In this document: one piece after another, positions 559 to 9,258 of the stretch
Layout of the letters: each line of letters begins with the position of its first letter
Position numbering within the stretch: position 1 is the first letter of the stretch
Made by a program: the position numbers and the translations under genes
Assembly (NCBI GenBank): GCA_023382875.1
Contig: JAHDXH010000007.1
Location: 1-48,009 of the forward strand
DNA from: Patescibacteria group bacterium
GTDB taxonomy: Bacteria > Patescibacteriota > Microgenomatia > UBA1400 > PJMF01
Direction: 5' to 3'
DNA length: 48,009 nt
The notes under the pieces: model-generated
The model's input: the letters and a program-made list of their open reading frames with translations, nothing else
Databases searched by the model: none
What the model was told of the DNA's origin: nothing

Positions 559-1197
559 TTAAGATCGACCCATTCTCTTTTGCACAGCTTGCCAGATGTT
601 TTCTTCAACCTCTTCAAGAGACTTACTGGCATCAACAGTCACCCAGCGCTTGCTCTTATCAGCGTGAGCAATTTTCAAGTAACCTTCCCTAACTTGGCGG
701 TGGAAGTCAGTTGATTCCATATCTAAGCGGTCAACTTTGCCAGATTCGCGGCGTCTTTCTAAACCCACCTCTACGGGCAGATCTAAAAGCAAAGTTAAAT
801 CTGGATAAGTATTTTTGGTAGAAATATTATTCAAATCTTCAATCAGGTTTTCGCCAAAACCACGGACAATGCCTTGATAAACCACACTACTATCGCGTGA
901 GCGATCCATCAAAACTACTTTGCCAGCTGACAAACTTGGCAAAACAATTTCGCGGTAAATTTGAGCGCGAGCAGCTTGGAAAAGCAAAACTTCGGTCGTA
1001 AAGGCAATGCCAACGTTTTTACTAGACAAAACTACTTCTCTAATTTGTTCTGAGATAACAGTCCCACCCGGTTCTCTTAAAACCACTACGTCATGACCAA
1101 CTTTGGTTAAACGATCGCGCAATCGGACAATTTGGGTAGTTTTACCACCACCCTCGCCACCTTCAAAAGTAATCAAAAAACCCTTGGCTTCTGACAT
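559..1197 (-). CDS. tmk: thymidylate kinase (dTMP kinase)
   Basis: Phosphorylates dTMP to dTDP with ATP, the step that both de novo and salvage thymidylate must pass through. The 212-residue length is normal for the family. The N-terminus carries the P-loop FEGGEGGGKTT (about residues 11-21), followed by the dTMP-binding REPGGT motif and the DRSRDSSVVYQG segment that matches the family DRY-type motif. It is the last gene of a minus-strand operon with tdk (25-base gap) and the MazG-like gene. All three likely start from the promoter near 2753-2758. The start was chosen because MSEAKGFLITFEGG matches the expected distance to the P-loop. Confidence 0.95.
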   Translation of the reverse strand: MSEAKGFLITFEGGEGGGKTTQIVRLRDRLTKVGHDVVVLREPGGTVISEQIREVVLSSKNVGIAFTTEVLLFQAARAQIYREIVLPSLSAGKVVLMDRSRDSSVVYQGIVRGFGENLIEDLNNISTKNTYPDLTLLLDLPVEVGLERRRESGKVDRLDMESTDFHRQVREGYLKIAHADKSKRWVTVDASKSLEEVEENIWQAVQKRMGRS

Positions 1198-1222: not shown

Positions 1223-1795
1223 TTATTCTAAATCTCCTCGTAAAGCATCATAGCAAATTGCGCAGGCAACGCCAAAGATCTCATCGGCACCTACATTTTC
1301 AATTTGACTCAAAGGATGCTTGGCATAAGTAAAAATGGCTGGATGTTCACAGCCCTCATGATCACAACGGGCAGTCAATTTTATTACCTGATCGGCTTTT
1401 TCCATTAACTCAGGCATGGGACCAAAGCCATCTTTTTTGTAATCTAAATCCAGTCCAGCAGCAACCACCAACATTCCCCTAACCAGCAATTGCTCAATTA
1501 CACTAATTACTTCATGAGAACAAAATTGAACTTCGTCAATCAAAACACAAGATAAGCTTTCATATTCAGAAACAATCGACAAAATTTCTGTAGGATTTTT
1601 GGCGTCAAAAAGTCGAGCGCCATAAGCCTGACCATCGTGAGAGTGAACTTGTTCACCACCACCATAACGACTATCCATACTCGGTTTCAAAATCAAGCTA
1701 GTATCAGGGTGGTGTCGAGCTTGATCTATTAAATAAGAAGTTTTGGCCGCAAACATTGGGCCTGTCACTACTATTAACTCTCCTCTTTTTGTCAT
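1223..1795 (-). CDS. tdk: thymidine kinase, type II
   Basis: Salvages thymidine (and deoxyuridine) to the monophosphate, feeding the adjacent Tmk. The 190-residue protein has the type II P-loop GPMFAAKTS near the N-terminus, the DEVQF Walker-B-like motif at about residue 88, and paired cysteines (CDHEGC near 144-149 and CAIC near 179-182) that form the structural zinc site of this family. The lasso and substrate loop lie between the two Cys pairs. The gene begins 5 bases after the stop of the MazG-like gene and ends 25 bases before tmk, so the three form an operon. Confidence 0.94.
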   Translation of the reverse strand: MTKRGELIVVTGPMFAAKTSYLIDQARHHPDTSLILKPSMDSRYGGGEQVHSHDGQAYGARLFDAKNPTEILSIVSEYESLSCVLIDEVQFCSHEVISVIEQLLVRGMLVVAAGLDLDYKKDGFGPMPELMEKADQVIKLTARCDHEGCEHPAIFTYAKHPLSQIENVGADEIFGVACAICYDALRGDLE

Positions 1796-1800
1796 GCTGT

Positions 1801-2688
1801 TTAGGTTCTATTACGATTTAACAAACTACTAACCTTGACTGAAAAACCGTAAGTAGAAGCAATAACTTGAGCTGCAGCGCGATACCAGATGCCAATTGGT
1901 CTTAACTCTCCCAATTCAATCTCCGCTTCTTCTTGCGGCTGGTAAAACTCACCTGTACCCTTCTTGGGTCTTTCGCCAGTTGTTTGATCAACTTCGCCAT
2001 CAAATAAAGTCGCACTTATCTTACGTTGCCTATGATAAAAAGCCTCCAATTCTTCAGGACTTAACTCTTCTTTTGGCAAAGCAAACATTGATGCTGGATA
2101 CTTAATCATGTTGCGAGCAATTTTTTCGATTACTGCTTTTCCAGAATCCACACCAATTAAGCTATGCATGGCAATGCTGTAAGCCAAAATATCCTCCAAC
2201 ACAGTGGGAAGCTTTTCTCTTTTCGAATCATCAAAACTAAGCACGAACTCGGCTTCATCGTTTAAAAGTTGTCTTAAAATTTGATATACCTTATTTTTTT
2301 CATCACTCAATGCCTCTGGCCTATCCATAGGCTTACCAACTTCTGGTAAGTCAAACTGAAACCTTTGGGCAATTTGACCAACCTTGGCGTAGATGCTATC
2401 TATAGGAATAGCCAAACCCATTTCATCAAAAGCGGTCATCCCAAATACTAAAATGTCGGAAATTTCCTGTTGGCGATAATCTTCTCTGGTTCGATGATCT
2501 TTTTTAATATTTTCAGCAGAAAAAATTCCTGAGTGGTCACCACCATTTAGTTCCTCAATCTCATCGCCTAATAATTTAAGCGCAACCTTCAGATCCGAAT
2601 GATTAAATTTATCAATCAATGGACGATCGGTTTGCCAATCGATATGGGCTTGATGAGCGGCTTGGAAGAGTTCGTGACGGCTGGACAT
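1801..2688 (-). CDS. MazG-like nucleotide pyrophosphohydrolase with an extra C-terminal helical domain
   Basis: The N-terminal 110 residues carry the all-alpha NTP pyrophosphohydrolase signature, EIEE followed about 29 residues later by EISD. This is the EXXE...EXXD magnesium-binding pattern of the MazG/dUTPase-2 superfamily, whose members cleave (d)NTPs to monophosphate and pyrophosphate. The remaining 180 residues are helical and unrecognised. The ORF-track start at 2724 is a GTG; the ATG at 2688 (MSSRHELFQ) is preferred, though neither has a good Shine-Dalgarno site. It heads the mazG-like/tdk/tmk operon, so a role in dNTP or dUTP clean-up is likely. The exact substrate is not known from sequence. 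Confidence 0.8.
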   Translation of the reverse strand: MSSRHELFQAAHQAHIDWQTDRPLIDKFNHSDLKVALKLLGDEIEELNGGDHSGIFSAENIKKDHRTREDYRQQEISDILVFGMTAFDEMGLAIPIDSIYAKVGQIAQRFQFDLPEVGKPMDRPEALSDEKNKVYQILRQLLNDEAEFVLSFDDSKREKLPTVLEDILAYSIAMHSLIGVDSGKAVIEKIARNMIKYPASMFALPKEELSPEELEAFYHRQRKISATLFDGEVDQTTGERPKKGTGEFYQPQEEAEIELGELRPIGIWYRAAAQVIASTYGFSVKVSSLLNRNRT

Positions 2689-2746
2689 ACCTGCTAACTT
2701 TAGCCGTACACATTGGCTGCACACAATAGAACAAACTAGATCATAA

Positions 2747-2794
2747 ACACAAATTATAGTGGTTTGGGTTTTCTTCTAACACAACCTATTGTGT
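2747..2794 (-). promoter_or_regulatory. promoter overlapped by tandem NrdR-box-like palindromes
   Basis: Two 16-base sites resemble the NrdR box (consensus acaCwAtATaTwGtgt, from memory): ACACAAATTATAGTGG at 2747-2762 matches 13 of 16 positions and ACACAACCTATTGTGT at 2779-2794 matches 14 of 16. Their starts are 32 bases apart, about three helical turns, the usual NrdR spacing. The minus-strand -10 box TATAAT (2753-2758) lies inside the first box, and the -35 region abuts the second. Bound repressor would therefore block transcription of the MazG-like, tdk and tmk genes. No nrdR or nrd gene is visible in the window. Confidence 0.7.
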
Positions 2795-2826: not shown

Positions 2827-3258
2827 CTATTTTTTGCCTGTGGATCCGAATCCTCCTCGGTTTTTACCCCCCAATGATTCGTGAGCAGATATCTCAACTT
2901 GTTCGTAAGAAACCACAATCAGTTGCACCAACCTTTGTCCTCGCTCTATCACTACGTCGTGATCTGAAAAATTATAAAGTGCCGCCTTATATTCGTCTTC
3001 GTCACCAGAGTAATCACTATCTCCCACCCCAATTCCGTTAATCATCATCAATCCTTCTTTGTGCAATGAACTACGAGCGGCTAATAAAGCCCAACAATTC
3101 TTGGGAAGTTTGATAGCAACATTGAGTGGTACATAGGCAATTTCTTTTGCTTTGATCACAGTTTCAATTCTGCTATAAAGATCAATTCCGGCGGCGCCTT
3201 TGGTTTTGTATTCGGGTAATGGTAGGGTTTTGTCAAAAAGTTTGATTTTTAGTTTCAT
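2827..3258 (-). CDS. dut: dUTP diphosphatase (trimeric dUTPase)
   Basis: Hydrolyses dUTP to dUMP and pyrophosphate, supplying ThyX and keeping uracil out of DNA. All five trimeric dUTPase motifs are visible in the 143 residues: AAGIDLYS (1), ARSSLHKEG (2), GVGDSDYSGD (3, slightly diverged from the usual GVIDxDYxG), ERGQRLVQLIV (4) and the C-terminal arm GGKNRGGFGSTGK (5). Length is normal. It lies on the minus strand, divergent from dcd, so the two enzymes acting one after the other (dCTP to dUTP to dUMP) flank one intergenic region. Confidence 0.95.
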   Translation of the reverse strand: MKLKIKLFDKTLPLPEYKTKGAAGIDLYSRIETVIKAKEIAYVPLNVAIKLPKNCWALLAARSSLHKEGLMMINGIGVGDSDYSGDEDEYKAALYNFSDHDVVIERGQRLVQLIVVSYEQVEISAHESLGGKNRGGFGSTGKK

Positions 3259-3340: not shown

Positions 3341-3913
3341 ATGTTTCTTTCAGACCACGACATCAAAAAAGCACTTAAGTCCGGCTCGGTCATTATCCAG
3401 GATTTTGATCCTAAGAGATTGCAACCAGCAAGCTACGACGTACTACTTGGTAATGACTTTTTGCTTTTTGATCGACATCAGCTTGGCGTCATTGACCCCA
3501 AGCAAAATCAGGATAAATACATGAGGAAAATTCATGTGGCCGATGATGAAGCATTTATTCTCCATCCTCATGAATTCGCTTTGGCCGTCACCAAAGATTT
3601 CTTTGGTGTCGACAAAAGTTTGTGTTGTCACATCATGGGCAAAAGTAGTTTGGCCAGATTGGGTTTAATCATTCATACCACCGCTGGATTTGTTGACCCA
3701 GGCAACCAGCTTAATGCCACCCTCGAGCTCTATAACACCAACAGTTTACCAGTCAAACTTTACCCAGGTATGAAAATTGCCCAAATTGCTTTTTGCCGCC
3801 TGGAAACTCCAGCCACCAAACCTTATGGTCATCCAGACTTTGGCAGCAAATACTTTAAATCAGGTTCAGTAGAAGGTAGCCAAATGTGGAAAAATTTTAA
3901 CCATGAAGACTAG
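3341..3913 (+). CDS. dcd: dCTP deaminase
   Basis: Deaminates dCTP to dUTP as the first step toward dUMP. The dCTP deaminase signature is clear: MGKSSLARLGL and TAGFVDPGN, followed by the ATLELYN strand that carries the catalytic glutamate. The ORF track starts at a TTG (3323), but the ATG at 3341 (MFLSDHDIKKAL) matches the usual N-terminus of the family and fits the promoter. A separate dut gene sits next door, so a mono-functional rather than bifunctional deaminase/dUTPase is likely, though sequence alone does not settle this. The last 11 bases overlap thyX, suggesting translational coupling. Confidence 0.93.
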   Translation: MFLSDHDIKKALKSGSVIIQDFDPKRLQPASYDVLLGNDFLLFDRHQLGVIDPKQNQDKYMRKIHVADDEAFILHPHEFALAVTKDFFGVDKSLCCHIMGKSSLARLGLIIHTTAGFVDPGNQLNATLELYNTNSLPVKLYPGMKIAQIAFCRLETPATKPYGHPDFGSKYFKSGSVEGSQMWKNFNHED

Positions 3914-5501
3914 ATTTTCTTTTTATCCAGATTTACACATTGCTTCACTCGAAGCTGAGGCGCCACATCATCAGCTCAAGGCTCACACCCTACTTCAAGA
4001 TCCAACCCAGAAACAACCTTCCATCAACGCTTTTCTTGGCGCACGTTACTCAAGAAGCGCCGACAGCGTTGTCGACATTGCCAAAGAAGTCATGAACAAG
4101 GGTCAAGACGCAGCCAAGCGTCTTGAATCAATTTTTTATGGCTATGGGCATAAATCTGTTGGCGACATGGCCGACCTTTTCTTGTGTCTGGAAAACGTGC
4201 CCATGATCACCGCCATGAGACTCTTTAACCAAAACCCAGTTTTGGCTGGTCAAGAGCGCTCCACTCGCTTTCAAAACTTTGAAAAACCAGAATTTATCAA
4301 ACTCCCTTCTTCAGTCAAAAATTCAAAATTAAAAGCTGAGTATGAAGCCATCATTCATACTCATATGAAAAATTATCAAGACTTACTCGAGCCTACTCGA
4401 ATTGCTCTTGCCCAGCATTTTCAGATTGATGAAAATGATAAAGGTCAGGTTGGCGCTTTAACTGCCCGCACTTTTGACACCGTTCGCTATTTCTTACCTA
4501 TGGGACTTCAGACTAGCCTTGGTTTTGTCATGTCAGCCCGCTCTTGGTCTGATTTGATTAGCCAACTTGGCGCCAGTCGGTATAGCATCGAGCAAGAGTT
4601 GGGCCAATTAGTTCATGAGCTGTTGAGTACTCCTGATCACTCTGGATCTGGTTACATTCCAGAGGCAGATGGCTTGATTCGTCATACTGACAGCAATTAC
4701 TCAAGAAGAGAGTCAACCCAAGCAGTTTTAAAAGAGTTGAGTAAAGAATTTACTCAGGAAGAAAATATCCTGGTCAGCCGAAAGTTGGACAAAAATTTGC
4801 AGGTCAAACTCGGCGGGAACCCTACCGAAAACCTTCTTAGGCATTACGAACTACTCCTCCACCCCTTAGCAGCTGCTAAAAAAATCAAGTCACTCCAATC
4901 AACTGTGACAAAAATTGGGGAAATTATTTTTGACAAGCACAACCAACACCGCCAACTCGGCCAACTTGGTCAAAGTGGCGCCATTAGCCTTGAGGGCTTT
5001 GCTGACTTTGGTGTACTCAAAGATTTGAACCGCCACCGCAGTTTGGAAAGATTTGTTCCGATTTGGAATGATAATCTCAATCTAGAAGAAGAATTGGATC
5101 GCGAAAATACTCGCTGTTTCTTTGTTTGTAATTACTTACACTTACCCGAGTTTTCTGGACTCAAAAAGGAGTATGAAAAAAGATTAGCAGCCACCTACGA
5201 AAGAATTCGCGCTTGGCACAAAGCAGCTGTTGCTGAAATTGGAGCCGATCTTGCTCATGAGTACACCACCTATCTATTACCCCACGCTCACGCCACCAGA
5301 TACCGTTTTTACGGCAGTATTGACGATTTGCAGTACACAATCAATTTGCGAAGTCGCAATGGCGGACACATCGCTTATAGAAGCTTAGCTTACTCATGGT
5401 TGAAAAAACTTGCTCAAGCCGACAGCTTTTGGATTAGCTTACTCAGTAAAATTCCCGCTGTTGATCCTGGGTCCAGAGAACAATTTATCGATCGATCCTA
5501 A
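3903..5501 (+). CDS. thyX: double-length FAD-dependent thymidylate synthase ThyX
   Basis: ThyX makes dTMP from dUMP using methylene-tetrahydrofolate, FAD and NAD(P)H. Usual ThyX is about 220-250 residues; this protein has 532 and looks like two ThyX-related halves. The first (about 40-250) has YGHKSVGDMADLF, ERSTRFQ and LPMGLQTSLGFVMSARS. The second (about 310-500) has NRHRSLERF (the RHRxxS-type signature), LLPHAHATRYRFYGS and NLRSRNGGHIAYRS. The family signature is best kept in the second half, so the first may be structural. It overlaps dcd by 11 bases, so the two are one operon. No thyA is visible in the window. Confidence 0.85.
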   Translation: MKTRFSFYPDLHIASLEAEAPHHQLKAHTLLQDPTQKQPSINAFLGARYSRSADSVVDIAKEVMNKGQDAAKRLESIFYGYGHKSVGDMADLFLCLENVPMITAMRLFNQNPVLAGQERSTRFQNFEKPEFIKLPSSVKNSKLKAEYEAIIHTHMKNYQDLLEPTRIALAQHFQIDENDKGQVGALTARTFDTVRYFLPMGLQTSLGFVMSARSWSDLISQLGASRYSIEQELGQLVHELLSTPDHSGSGYIPEADGLIRHTDSNYSRRESTQAVLKELSKEFTQEENILVSRKLDKNLQVKLGGNPTENLLRHYELLLHPLAAAKKIKSLQSTVTKIGEIIFDKHNQHRQLGQLGQSGAISLEGFADFGVLKDLNRHRSLERFVPIWNDNLNLEEELDRENTRCFFVCNYLHLPEFSGLKKEYEKRLAATYERIRAWHKAAVAEIGADLAHEYTTYLLPHAHATRYRFYGSIDDLQYTINLRSRNGGHIAYRSLAYSWLKKLAQADSFWISLLSKIPAVDPGSREQFIDRS

Positions 5502-6299: not shown

Positions 6300-6875
6300 T
6301 TATGTCGAGTATAAACTATGTTTTGATAAATAGTGAATTACTTCTGGGGCGACCAATTTGCCAACTTCCGAGCCAGCCAAAAGCTCATTTTTGACAACAG
6401 TTGAAGAAATTTCCATTTCCTCTAAATCATATAAGGCCTTCATTCCTTCTCTTAAAAGTGCAAAATCAAAGCCAGATCTAGGGTAAACGTAAAAAACAAA
6501 CTCCTTGAGCATTTGTTCATAAGAATGCCATTTGTGAAAACTAATTAAATTGTCTGAGCCCATTAAGAAAGAAAATTCGTGTTCTGGATATTTTTGACTT
6601 AATGCCCTGAGGGTATTGTAAGTAATACTCATTCCAGACTGATTAAGTTCGTATTCGCAAATTTGAACCGGCAGGTCATTAAAGTAGGTATTTTTCACTA
6701 AAGCCAACATTTCCAATCTATCAGTAGCGCCAGCCATTTTTTTGGAAAAAGCGTGACTTTTGACTGGTAGTAACCAAACTTCATCCACCAATCCTAGTTT
6801 GAGGAAATTTCTGACAACTTTGATATGGCCAAAATGAGGTGGGTCAAAAGCACCACCAAAAACGGCGATTTTCAT
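6300..6875 (-). CDS. nadD: nicotinate-nucleotide adenylyltransferase
   Basis: Adenylates nicotinate mononucleotide to deamido-NAD+, just before NadE. The N-terminal GGAFDPPHFGH motif is the nucleotidyltransferase HxGH signature, and ISSTVVKNEL near the C-terminus matches the second ATP-binding motif ISST.IR. Length (191 aa) is normal. Its ATG overlaps the TGA stop of topA (ATGA), which points to translational coupling, and nadE follows after 2 bases. The product is cytoplasmic. Confidence 0.94.
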   Translation of the reverse strand: MKIAVFGGAFDPPHFGHIKVVRNFLKLGLVDEVWLLPVKSHAFSKKMAGATDRLEMLALVKNTYFNDLPVQICEYELNQSGMSITYNTLRALSQKYPEHEFSFLMGSDNLISFHKWHSYEQMLKEFVFYVYPRSGFDFALLREGMKALYDLEEMEISSTVVKNELLAGSEVGKLVAPEVIHYLSKHSLYST

Positions 6876-9130
6876 TTTTTAGCTTTGCTTTTTGTGGCAG
6901 CAGCTTTTTTCTTTGGACTTGCTTTTTTGGTAGCAGGCTTTTTGGCAGTGGTTTTTTTAGTAGTGGTTTTACTAGCGGCAGGATTAGATTTGGCAAAACG
7001 AGCTTTTCTAGCTTCTGCTCTCTCTGCTCTTTTAGCCTGCATCTCTTTCCACTCTTCTTTGGTAAGCTTTTCACCTGGTTCTGGTTTTTTCCAAGAAGCC
7101 CAATCACAAGTTGGATAAGTGCTACAACCATAGAACATTTTGCCCCAGCGAGAATTTTTTTCAATTACCTCGCCAGTGCCACACAGTGGACAAACTACAC
7201 CATCCACCTTAGTCACAATGTTTTGAGTGTATTTGCAAGTTGGATATTTAGAACAACTATAAAACTTACCAAAGCGGCCAGTTCTAATCACCACATCACC
7301 CACTTCACCTTCGAGGGTTCCAGCTTTTTGTGCCTCCAAACAGGTAGGACATTTTTCGCCGGTTTTCTCGACTGGCACTTGCATACGGTCAGCTTTATCG
7401 ACCACTTCATCAATTTGCTTTTCTAAAGGACGATAAAAAGTACCAACTACTTTTCTCCACTCTTTTTCACCTCTGGAAATGCGGTCGAGATCTTCTTCCA
7501 TTTCAGCAGTGAAATCATAGTCCATGATGGTTTTGAAATGCTCCAAAAGGAAATCACAAACAGTAATACCAATCGGAGTAGCAAAGAAACGCTTATTTTG
7601 TCTCTCCACGTAACCGCGACTATCAATCACTGAAATAATACTGGCATAAGTACTTGGACGACCAATACCTCTTTTTTCCAATTCTTTAATGACAGATGCG
7701 TCATTGTAACGAGCTGGAGGCTGGGTAAATTTTTGAGCTGAATTAAGCTCACCAAAATACAAATCCTGACCCTCAGCTACATCAGGCAAGATTCTATCGC
7801 CTTGCCCTGGGAATAGTTTCATCCAACCGTCAAATTTCAAAATTGAGCCACTGGTTTTTAGCTCAACTTTTTTCACTTCACCTTTATTCAAGGTGGCTTC
7901 TATTGTCAATGAAGTTTGGTTGTAAACGGCAGTTTCCATTTGAGAAGAAACAAACCTTCTCCAAATCAAATCATAAAGTTTGACATGATTTTCAGTAAAC
8001 TTACTACTCTTGTGTCTAATCTCATCTACTGATTGGTCAATATAAGTGACACGAATTGCTTCGTGAGCTTCTTGCGCGTTTTTTGAAGAACCTTTGAAAA
8101 TTCTGGCCTGAGCAGGCAAATAATTTTGGCCATAATTTTTAACGATAAAAGCTCTAGCCATATCTATGGCTGTTGTAGATAAATTAACCGAGTCAGTACG
8201 ATGATAAGTAATTAAACCTTCCTCATAAAGCTGTTGAGCTAAAGTCATGGTTTGCTTAGAAGTATAACCAAGGCGATTGGCAGCAGCTTGCTGCAATGTT
8301 GAAGTAGTAAAAGGTGGCAAACTAACGCGGTTGCGCTCTTTTTTTTCGATCTCACTAATTCTGTAAGCTGCATCTGGCAAGAAACTCACCACATTTTTGA
8401 TATCGTCAGCAGACTTAGGAGCGAAATTTTTACCCTCGACAGTACTTACTCTGGCTACCAGGTAACCTTCTGGTAATTCATCAAGCGGTTTTTTATCAAT
8501 GAAAATCTGATGTTTTGGTATTTTTTCGTCTAACTTCAAAGCCACATCAAGCTCCCAATACTCTTCTGGAACGAAAGCGGCGATTTCTTTTTCCCTCTCA
8601 ACAATCAAACGTAAAGCCACAGATTGGACTCTACCAGCTGACAAACCGCGGCGAACCTTTTTCCATAAGACTGGGGAAATTTTATAGCCCACCAAACGAT
8701 CCACTACGCGACGAGCTTGTTGTGCATCGACCAAATCTAAATTAATTTCACTGGGACTAGAGATGGCTTTTAAAACCGCATCTTTGGTAATTTCGTGAAA
8801 GGTGGCTCTGGAAAATTTTGGTTTATGTTTAGCGCCTTCTTCCAATAAATATTTAACATGCCAAGCAATTGCCTCGCCTTCACGGTCAGGGTCCATTGCC
8901 AGATAGACTTTATCGGCAGTTTTGGCCAACTTTTTTAATGTAGCCACTACTTTTTTCTTATCCTCGCTGATCTCGTAAAGTGGCTCGAAATTTTTTTCTA
9001 TATCAATCGATAAGTTGTTACTAGGTAAGTCACGAACATGACCAACTGAAGCCTCAACCTTATAATCACTACCAAGATAACCACTTAGTTTTCTGGCTTT
9101 GGTTGGAGACTCGACGATAACTAAATTCAT
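6872..9130 (-). CDS. topA: DNA topoisomerase I with two zinc ribbons and a lysine-rich tail
   Basis: Type IA topoisomerase that relaxes negative supercoils. The Toprim domain opens with IVESPTKARKL and contains DPDREGEAIAWH; the active-site tyrosine is in YHRTDSVNLS. Two four-cysteine zinc ribbons follow (CPTC...YSCSKYPTC and CPLC...YGCSTYPTC), then about 50 residues of almost only Lys, Ala, Thr and Ser, a likely DNA-binding tail. The ORF-track start at 9154 is a GTG; the ATG at 9130 (MNLVIVESPTKA) has an AAAGAG site and matches the family N-terminus. nadD is coupled to its stop codon. Confidence 0.95.
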   Translation of the reverse strand: MNLVIVESPTKARKLSGYLGSDYKVEASVGHVRDLPSNNLSIDIEKNFEPLYEISEDKKKVVATLKKLAKTADKVYLAMDPDREGEAIAWHVKYLLEEGAKHKPKFSRATFHEITKDAVLKAISSPSEINLDLVDAQQARRVVDRLVGYKISPVLWKKVRRGLSAGRVQSVALRLIVEREKEIAAFVPEEYWELDVALKLDEKIPKHQIFIDKKPLDELPEGYLVARVSTVEGKNFAPKSADDIKNVVSFLPDAAYRISEIEKKERNRVSLPPFTTSTLQQAAANRLGYTSKQTMTLAQQLYEEGLITYHRTDSVNLSTTAIDMARAFIVKNYGQNYLPAQARIFKGSSKNAQEAHEAIRVTYIDQSVDEIRHKSSKFTENHVKLYDLIWRRFVSSQMETAVYNQTSLTIEATLNKGEVKKVELKTSGSILKFDGWMKLFPGQGDRILPDVAEGQDLYFGELNSAQKFTQPPARYNDASVIKELEKRGIGRPSTYASIISVIDSRGYVERQNKRFFATPIGITVCDFLLEHFKTIMDYDFTAEMEEDLDRISRGEKEWRKVVGTFYRPLEKQIDEVVDKADRMQVPVEKTGEKCPTCLEAQKAGTLEGEVGDVVIRTGRFGKFYSCSKYPTCKYTQNIVTKVDGVVCPLCGTGEVIEKNSRWGKMFYGCSTYPTCDWASWKKPEPGEKLTKEEWKEMQAKRAERAEARKARFAKSNPAASKTTTKKTTAKKPATKKASPKKKAAATKSKAKK

Positions 9131-9258
9131 AAATTTCTCTTTAAGGTAACTCACCTATTGTACACAAAAGGCTTTATCACACAAACTCAAAGCAGGAATT
9201 ATAACAGATGAGTTGAGAGTTTTTGTAATTTTTTGATCTAGTATGTTTGCTTTTGAAC

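Follow-up and report, generated by a model that had tools for sequence, protein, structure and literature searches.

The NrdR box was reportedly defined in a comparative study by Rodionov and Gelfand in 2005. NrdR has been described as specific for ribonucleotide reductase (RNR) genes (PMC12051234, PMC9110341), and proteobacterial NrdR regulons comprise about three genes on average (PMC5343134). NrdR binding elsewhere needs two boxes and dATP plus ATP, with ATP alone releasing the protein (PMC12051234, PMC9110341), and a spacer of 15-16 bp is preferred in vitro (PMC12051234). The promoter region analyzed here shares with the box pairs of bacterial RNR operons (PMC9110341, PMC12051234) the 16-bp palindromes, the published consensus, the two boxes, and the 16-bp spacer. 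It lies in a 48,009-nt stretch of DNA from a Patescibacteria group bacterium (hereafter, the window) and has the following neighbors:

2827 to 3258, minus strand: dut, dUTPase, the upstream neighbor (PF00692, E=1.9e-23)
2779 to 2794, minus strand: predicted NrdR box, promoter-distal, ACACAATAGGTTGTGT on the minus strand (14/16 to consensus; 19.0 bits)
2747 to 2762, minus strand: predicted NrdR box, promoter-proximal, CCACTATAATTTGTGT on the minus strand (13/16; 16.4 bits)
2724 to 2743, minus strand: 20-bp element TGATCTAGTTTGTTCTATTG, common to the nrdR promoter and overlapping a half-site claimed earlier
1801 to 2688, minus strand: MazG/all-alpha NTP pyrophosphatase-like gene, first gene of the operon (ExxE...ExxD motif; PDB profile matches)
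1223 to 1795, minus strand: tdk, thymidine kinase (PF00265, E=2.6e-30)
559 to 1197, minus strand: tmk, thymidylate kinase (TIGR00041, E=1.9e-49, above the cut-off)

The initial annotation of the window had claimed two 16-base palindromes that match the NrdR consensus at 13 and 14 of 16 positions and are spaced by three helical turns, and both points were confirmed. ACACAAATTATAGTGG (2747-2762) agrees with ACACWATATATWGTGT at 13 positions and ACACAACCTATTGTGT (2779-2794) at 14, both in keeping with the 16-bp NrdR consensus acaCwAtATaTwGtgt. The boxes are 32 bp apart from start to start, and their 16-bp spacer falls inside the 14-17 bp required by NrdR (approximately three turns from center to center) and fits the in vitro geometry of two-box binding. 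The pair is placed 32 bp past the dut stop codon and 58 bp ahead of the ATG of the MazG-like gene (2688). The tdk gene follows the MazG-like gene after 5 bp and tmk follows tdk after 25 bp, and the three genes are predicted to form a single transcript. Since dut is located ahead of the boxes, its control by this operator is not expected. On the strand opposite to dut are dcd and a double-length thyX (approximately 3341-5501); the ThyX protein (3903-5501, plus strand) is, with 532 aa, roughly double the usual size, contains two Thy1 matches, and is probably a fused domain pair. A search for thyA found none. Within the window, no NrdR box was found in the dut-dcd intergenic region or on topA (6872-9154), where the best site reached only 6.8 bits.

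Functionless AT-rich palindromes could arise by chance, and single boxes with up to three mismatches are indeed not rare: two are present in the window, at least two were obtained in 12 of 100 shuffles, which is unremarkable, and the genome contained 11 against 13 in a backwards control. Because the single-box genome scan was at chance level, pairs alone were used; a box with two mismatches at C19:5698 was dropped because of its location within a coding sequence. A degenerate pair pattern (ACWANNNNTWGT, 20 bases, and ACWANNNNTWGT again, with one mismatch allowed) matched twice in the whole genome and never in the control; the window site agreed perfectly, and the nrdR promoter had a single mismatch. 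With no mismatch allowed, matches were found in 15 of 192 phylum genomes, again with none in the control. The box scores of the window are based on a weight matrix trained on 54 boxes from the nrdR promoters of other genomes, the genome under study being excluded. The window pair scored 35.4 bits by this matrix, whereas the maximum in 5 Mb of simulated DNA was approximately 20 (spacings of 31-33), and the best independent pairs in 147 kb of the same genome at spacings of 24 to 44 were those of the window (35.4) and of nrdR (21.0). The window pair is far beyond chance; set against these pair statistics, its exclusivity across the genome, and its conservation in relatives (see below), a chance origin is improbable in the extreme.

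The initial annotation had made its proposal depend on an nrdR gene in the genome and had suggested that the nrdR and RNR promoters be inspected for the same box pair. The genome (1.0 Mb, 29 contigs, 97% complete) was found to encode NrdR with both its Zn-ribbon and ATP-cone domains (PF22811 and PF03477), and a 90-aa piece of the protein scored 122.8 of 124.65 bits with TIGR00244. The gene starts at C27:5922 and crosses the contig end; the start of C18 consists of the same bases as the end of C27, and the reading frame continues there. The continuity of nrdR from C27 to C18 is read from these shared ends, and the contigs were not joined. Approximately 40 bp past nrdR is a gene for an adenosylcobalamin-dependent ribonucleoside-triphosphate reductase (RTPR-type, class II RNR), for which the best match on C18 was TIGR02505 (E=1.4e-68, below the cut-off of the model). 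The promoter of nrdR carries a box pair of the same type as the window (C27:5862-5909; 21.0 bits), the second box of which is degenerate. In a genome of the same genus (G001), nrdR and the reductase gene are intact and adjacent, and solved NrdR structures align with the complete protein along its full length. In approximately 30 of the 39 genomes examined, the nrdR promoter contains two boxes spaced by 31-33 bp. Autoregulation of the nrdR-RNR operon is plausible. A gene for an ECF-type sigma factor is divergent from nrdR in both genus genomes (L013:5241-5771, minus strand; L087:2844-3374).

The relatives of the genome are named as Patescibacteria, Candidatus Pacebacteria, Chisholmbacteria, and Microgenomates. 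We surveyed 37 related tmk loci (248 kb). Pairs of at least 18 bits were detected in 15 of these loci, which represent four families of the order, and all 15 were located directly upstream of the gene preceding tmk and past dut wherever dut was seen. No pair of this strength was present in the remaining 22 loci, including two (G003 and G029) in which the dut-MazG-like-tmk order is kept. The spacing of the tmk-locus pairs peaked at 32, with 31 and 33 forming shoulders, and the reversed sequence gave almost none. Three of four further named genomes had weaker pairs (17.1-18.4 bits) composed of one strong and one weak box. In G001, CCACAACAGATTGTGA and CCACAACCCATTGTGG are located 32 bp apart at the same position as in the window, the box sequences having changed and the palindromes having been kept; in a genome of the same family (G012), the pair is 31 bp apart. 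The conservation upstream of orthologous operons to which the initial annotation had tied its proposal was therefore found both within the genus and beyond the family, elsewhere in the order, and neither of the two conditions named there for a refutation spoke against the proposal.

Box pairs were also found at the class III RNR genes of three genomes (G002, G005, and G023). When the matches of a pair search in 52 relatives were sorted by location, a classification of our own, approximately 17 fell elsewhere than at nrdR, class III RNR genes, and the gene preceding tmk, compared with approximately 23 in the control; since these numbers are close, the excess sits at the three named locations. 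One match outside them looks like a real exception. In G001 (C11; L086:4428-4836), a 90-aa ORF (MVYQINYDLRKPGRNYDEL...) of no clear family is preceded by a promoter that closely copies that of the tmk operon, with both the box pair and the 20-bp element; an NrdR-type promoter has thus been duplicated in front of a gene unrelated to the operon. Outside the order, strict pairs were located mostly at nrdR/RNR, and none was found at tmk in a strict phylum-wide search of a small sample; the tmk target thus looks order-level. In another lineage of the phylum (G214; L193:669-1599), a perfect pair lies between dcd and a 482-aa ORF and is possibly a further dNTP-pool target. In one relative (G033), tmk is located 26 bp past a ribonucleotide reductase gene (L125:1841-4051), which would couple TMP kinase and RNR expression independently.

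The 20-bp element (TGATCTAGTTTGTNNTATTG) occurs in its own genome only at 2724-2743 of the window (minus strand) and in the nrdR promoter (L013:5784-5803, plus strand). The same-genus genome has it in the same two promoters and at one more NrdR-box locus (L086:4479-4498). It is located ahead of the boxes at nrdR and past them at the tmk operon, and it is missing from most of the tmk-operon promoters of relatives. In the nrdR promoters of other relatives, the element resembles a pair of 10-bp direct repeats preceding TTGACA. The element may represent an extended -10 or the site of a second regulator. A third half-site, ACACAATAG, had been claimed at 2721-2729; the sequence is present but scored -7.7 bits as a box, and it was rejected as the edge of the 20-bp element, the same-genus sequence retaining CTATTGT and losing GTGT. 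The sharing of the element by only two promoters of the genome, as well as the ECF-type sigma gene divergent from nrdR in both genus genomes, would agree with a regulator other than NrdR that recognizes a similar palindrome and is tied, for example, to the element or to the sigma factor. However, the tmk-operon promoters of most relatives lack the element, the motif and spacing are those of the published NrdR box, and the pair also occurs at class III RNR genes and phylum-wide at nrdR/RNR, where the common factor is NrdR. We regard such a regulator as very unlikely.

The boxes had also been said to cover the -10 and -35 regions of the operon promoter. The operon strand showed no sigma-70 consensus promoter, and this coverage is therefore unproven. 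In G012, G019, and other relatives, the end of the proximal box is at most approximately 20 bp from the start codon, which brings the boxes onto the region where transcription starts, a geometry suited to a repressor. The likeliest mode of action is accordingly repression by occlusion. NrdR bound at the pair might instead activate the operon or form a road-block to transcription reading through from dut: the stretch from dut to the boxes showed no terminator, and NrdR of Pseudomonas aeruginosa was reported to activate topA (PMC4409342). The topA activation has been questioned (PMC12051234), however, and the closeness of the proximal box to the start codon in several relatives also argues against this mode, which we consider improbable.

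With high probability, in our judgment, the pair is an NrdR operator through which MazG-like-tdk-tmk would be repressed in a dATP-dependent manner jointly with nrdR-RNR. Both the binding of NrdR to the window pair and repression as its effect are predicted from sequence, and the two-box tetramer binding and dATP/ATP switching are taken from other, published NrdRs. At high dATP, NrdR carrying dATP and ATP would assemble as a tetramer, grip both boxes simultaneously across three helical turns, and shut off both the MazG-like-tdk-tmk operon and the nrdR-RNR operon in which NrdR itself is encoded. At low dATP, NrdR with ATP alone bound would come off the DNA, and the reductase would be switched on along with the dTTP arm, in which Tdk would serve salvage, Tmk would phosphorylate TMP, and the NTP pyrophosphatase would clean up. 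Several points count against the operator reading: the 22 related tmk loci with no pair of at least 18 bits, the finding of no strict pair at tmk outside the order, the chance that transcripts from dut run past the operator in view of the missing terminator, and the logic of repressing a clean-up enzyme at high dATP, which is not obvious.

Across relatives, two unrelated protein types, which showed no match to each other, occupy the slot that separates the boxes from tmk. In the MazG-like type (the window, G001, G012, G019, and others), ExxE and ExxD are conserved, and residues E43, E46, E75, and D78 are invariant in nine aligned sequences. The predicted structure of this type is all-helical (pLDDT 76); the top hit of its profile in the PDB was RS21-C6/dCTP pyrophosphatase 1 (E=0.0019), the G001 ortholog matched Pfam PF12643 weakly (E=4.6e-5, below the cut-off), and the top Foldseek hit, the MazG-like dUTP pyrophosphatase DR2231, was not significant (E=1.6). 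The Maf-like type (G007, G009, G021, G026, and G041) matched Maf by profile comparison with 93% probability over 71 columns. The Maf-like family preceding tmk (L110, L115, L118, L122, L093, L152, and L154) consists of proteins of 320-466 aa with the motifs ATGSxRKA, DTVD..GKPxN, and GGGG..QQ; no Maf match was found in Pfam among the members scanned, and a structure model of a Maf-like slot protein was discarded as too poor (pLDDT 43). Replacement of the MazG-like first gene by a Maf-like one leaves the box pair in place. One house-cleaning fold thus appears to be swapped for another under the same operator, which supports the reading of pool clean-up, and both types are probable dNTP-pool enzymes. 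The gene content (MazG-like NTP pyrophosphatase, tdk, and tmk) agrees with the earlier proposal of a regulon that reaches into salvage and pool clean-up, with NrdR binding as predicted above.

The best reading of these comparisons is that the NrdR regulon, for which RNR specificity is the usual description, has been extended at the level of the order. Somewhat less firmly, we favor the view that NrdR may be a general regulator of dNTP supply in one order of Patescibacteria, a dATP/ATP sensor co-repressing RNR and the separate dTTP branch, the latter comprising salvage, TMP kinase, and a pool-cleaning pyrophosphatase of either of two interchangeable types, with dATP setting thymidylate capacity. 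If true, the conserved two-box thymidylate operator would be a clean second class of NrdR target, and dTTP supply would be coupled to the dATP signal. The regulon is directly testable, in tiny, mostly uncultured bacteria with little-known regulation, and two poorly annotated families, MazG-like and Maf-like, are flagged by it. The open-access literature contained no report found by us of NrdR with a tmk, tdk, MazG, dUTPase, thymidylate, or pyrophosphatase target; the 2005 study of Rodionov and Gelfand was outside this scope, and priority is therefore uncertain.

Compared with known systems, the regulator and the operator are familiar, and the target operon appears to be of a new kind. As in RNR operons, the window pair has the motif of the nrdR-RNR promoter of its own genome; unlike them, the operon contains no RNR gene and consists of genes for an NTP pyrophosphatase-like protein, thymidine kinase, and thymidylate kinase. 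The topA gene of P. aeruginosa (PMC4409342) is likewise a proposed non-RNR target of NrdR, but it has a single box and its reported effect is activation, whereas the window has a proper pair. In Streptomyces, nrdR and nrdJ are linked and co-transcribed (PMC4409342), and nrdR directly precedes a class II RNR gene there as it does here; the genome of the window differs in having an extra pair on a thymidylate operon.
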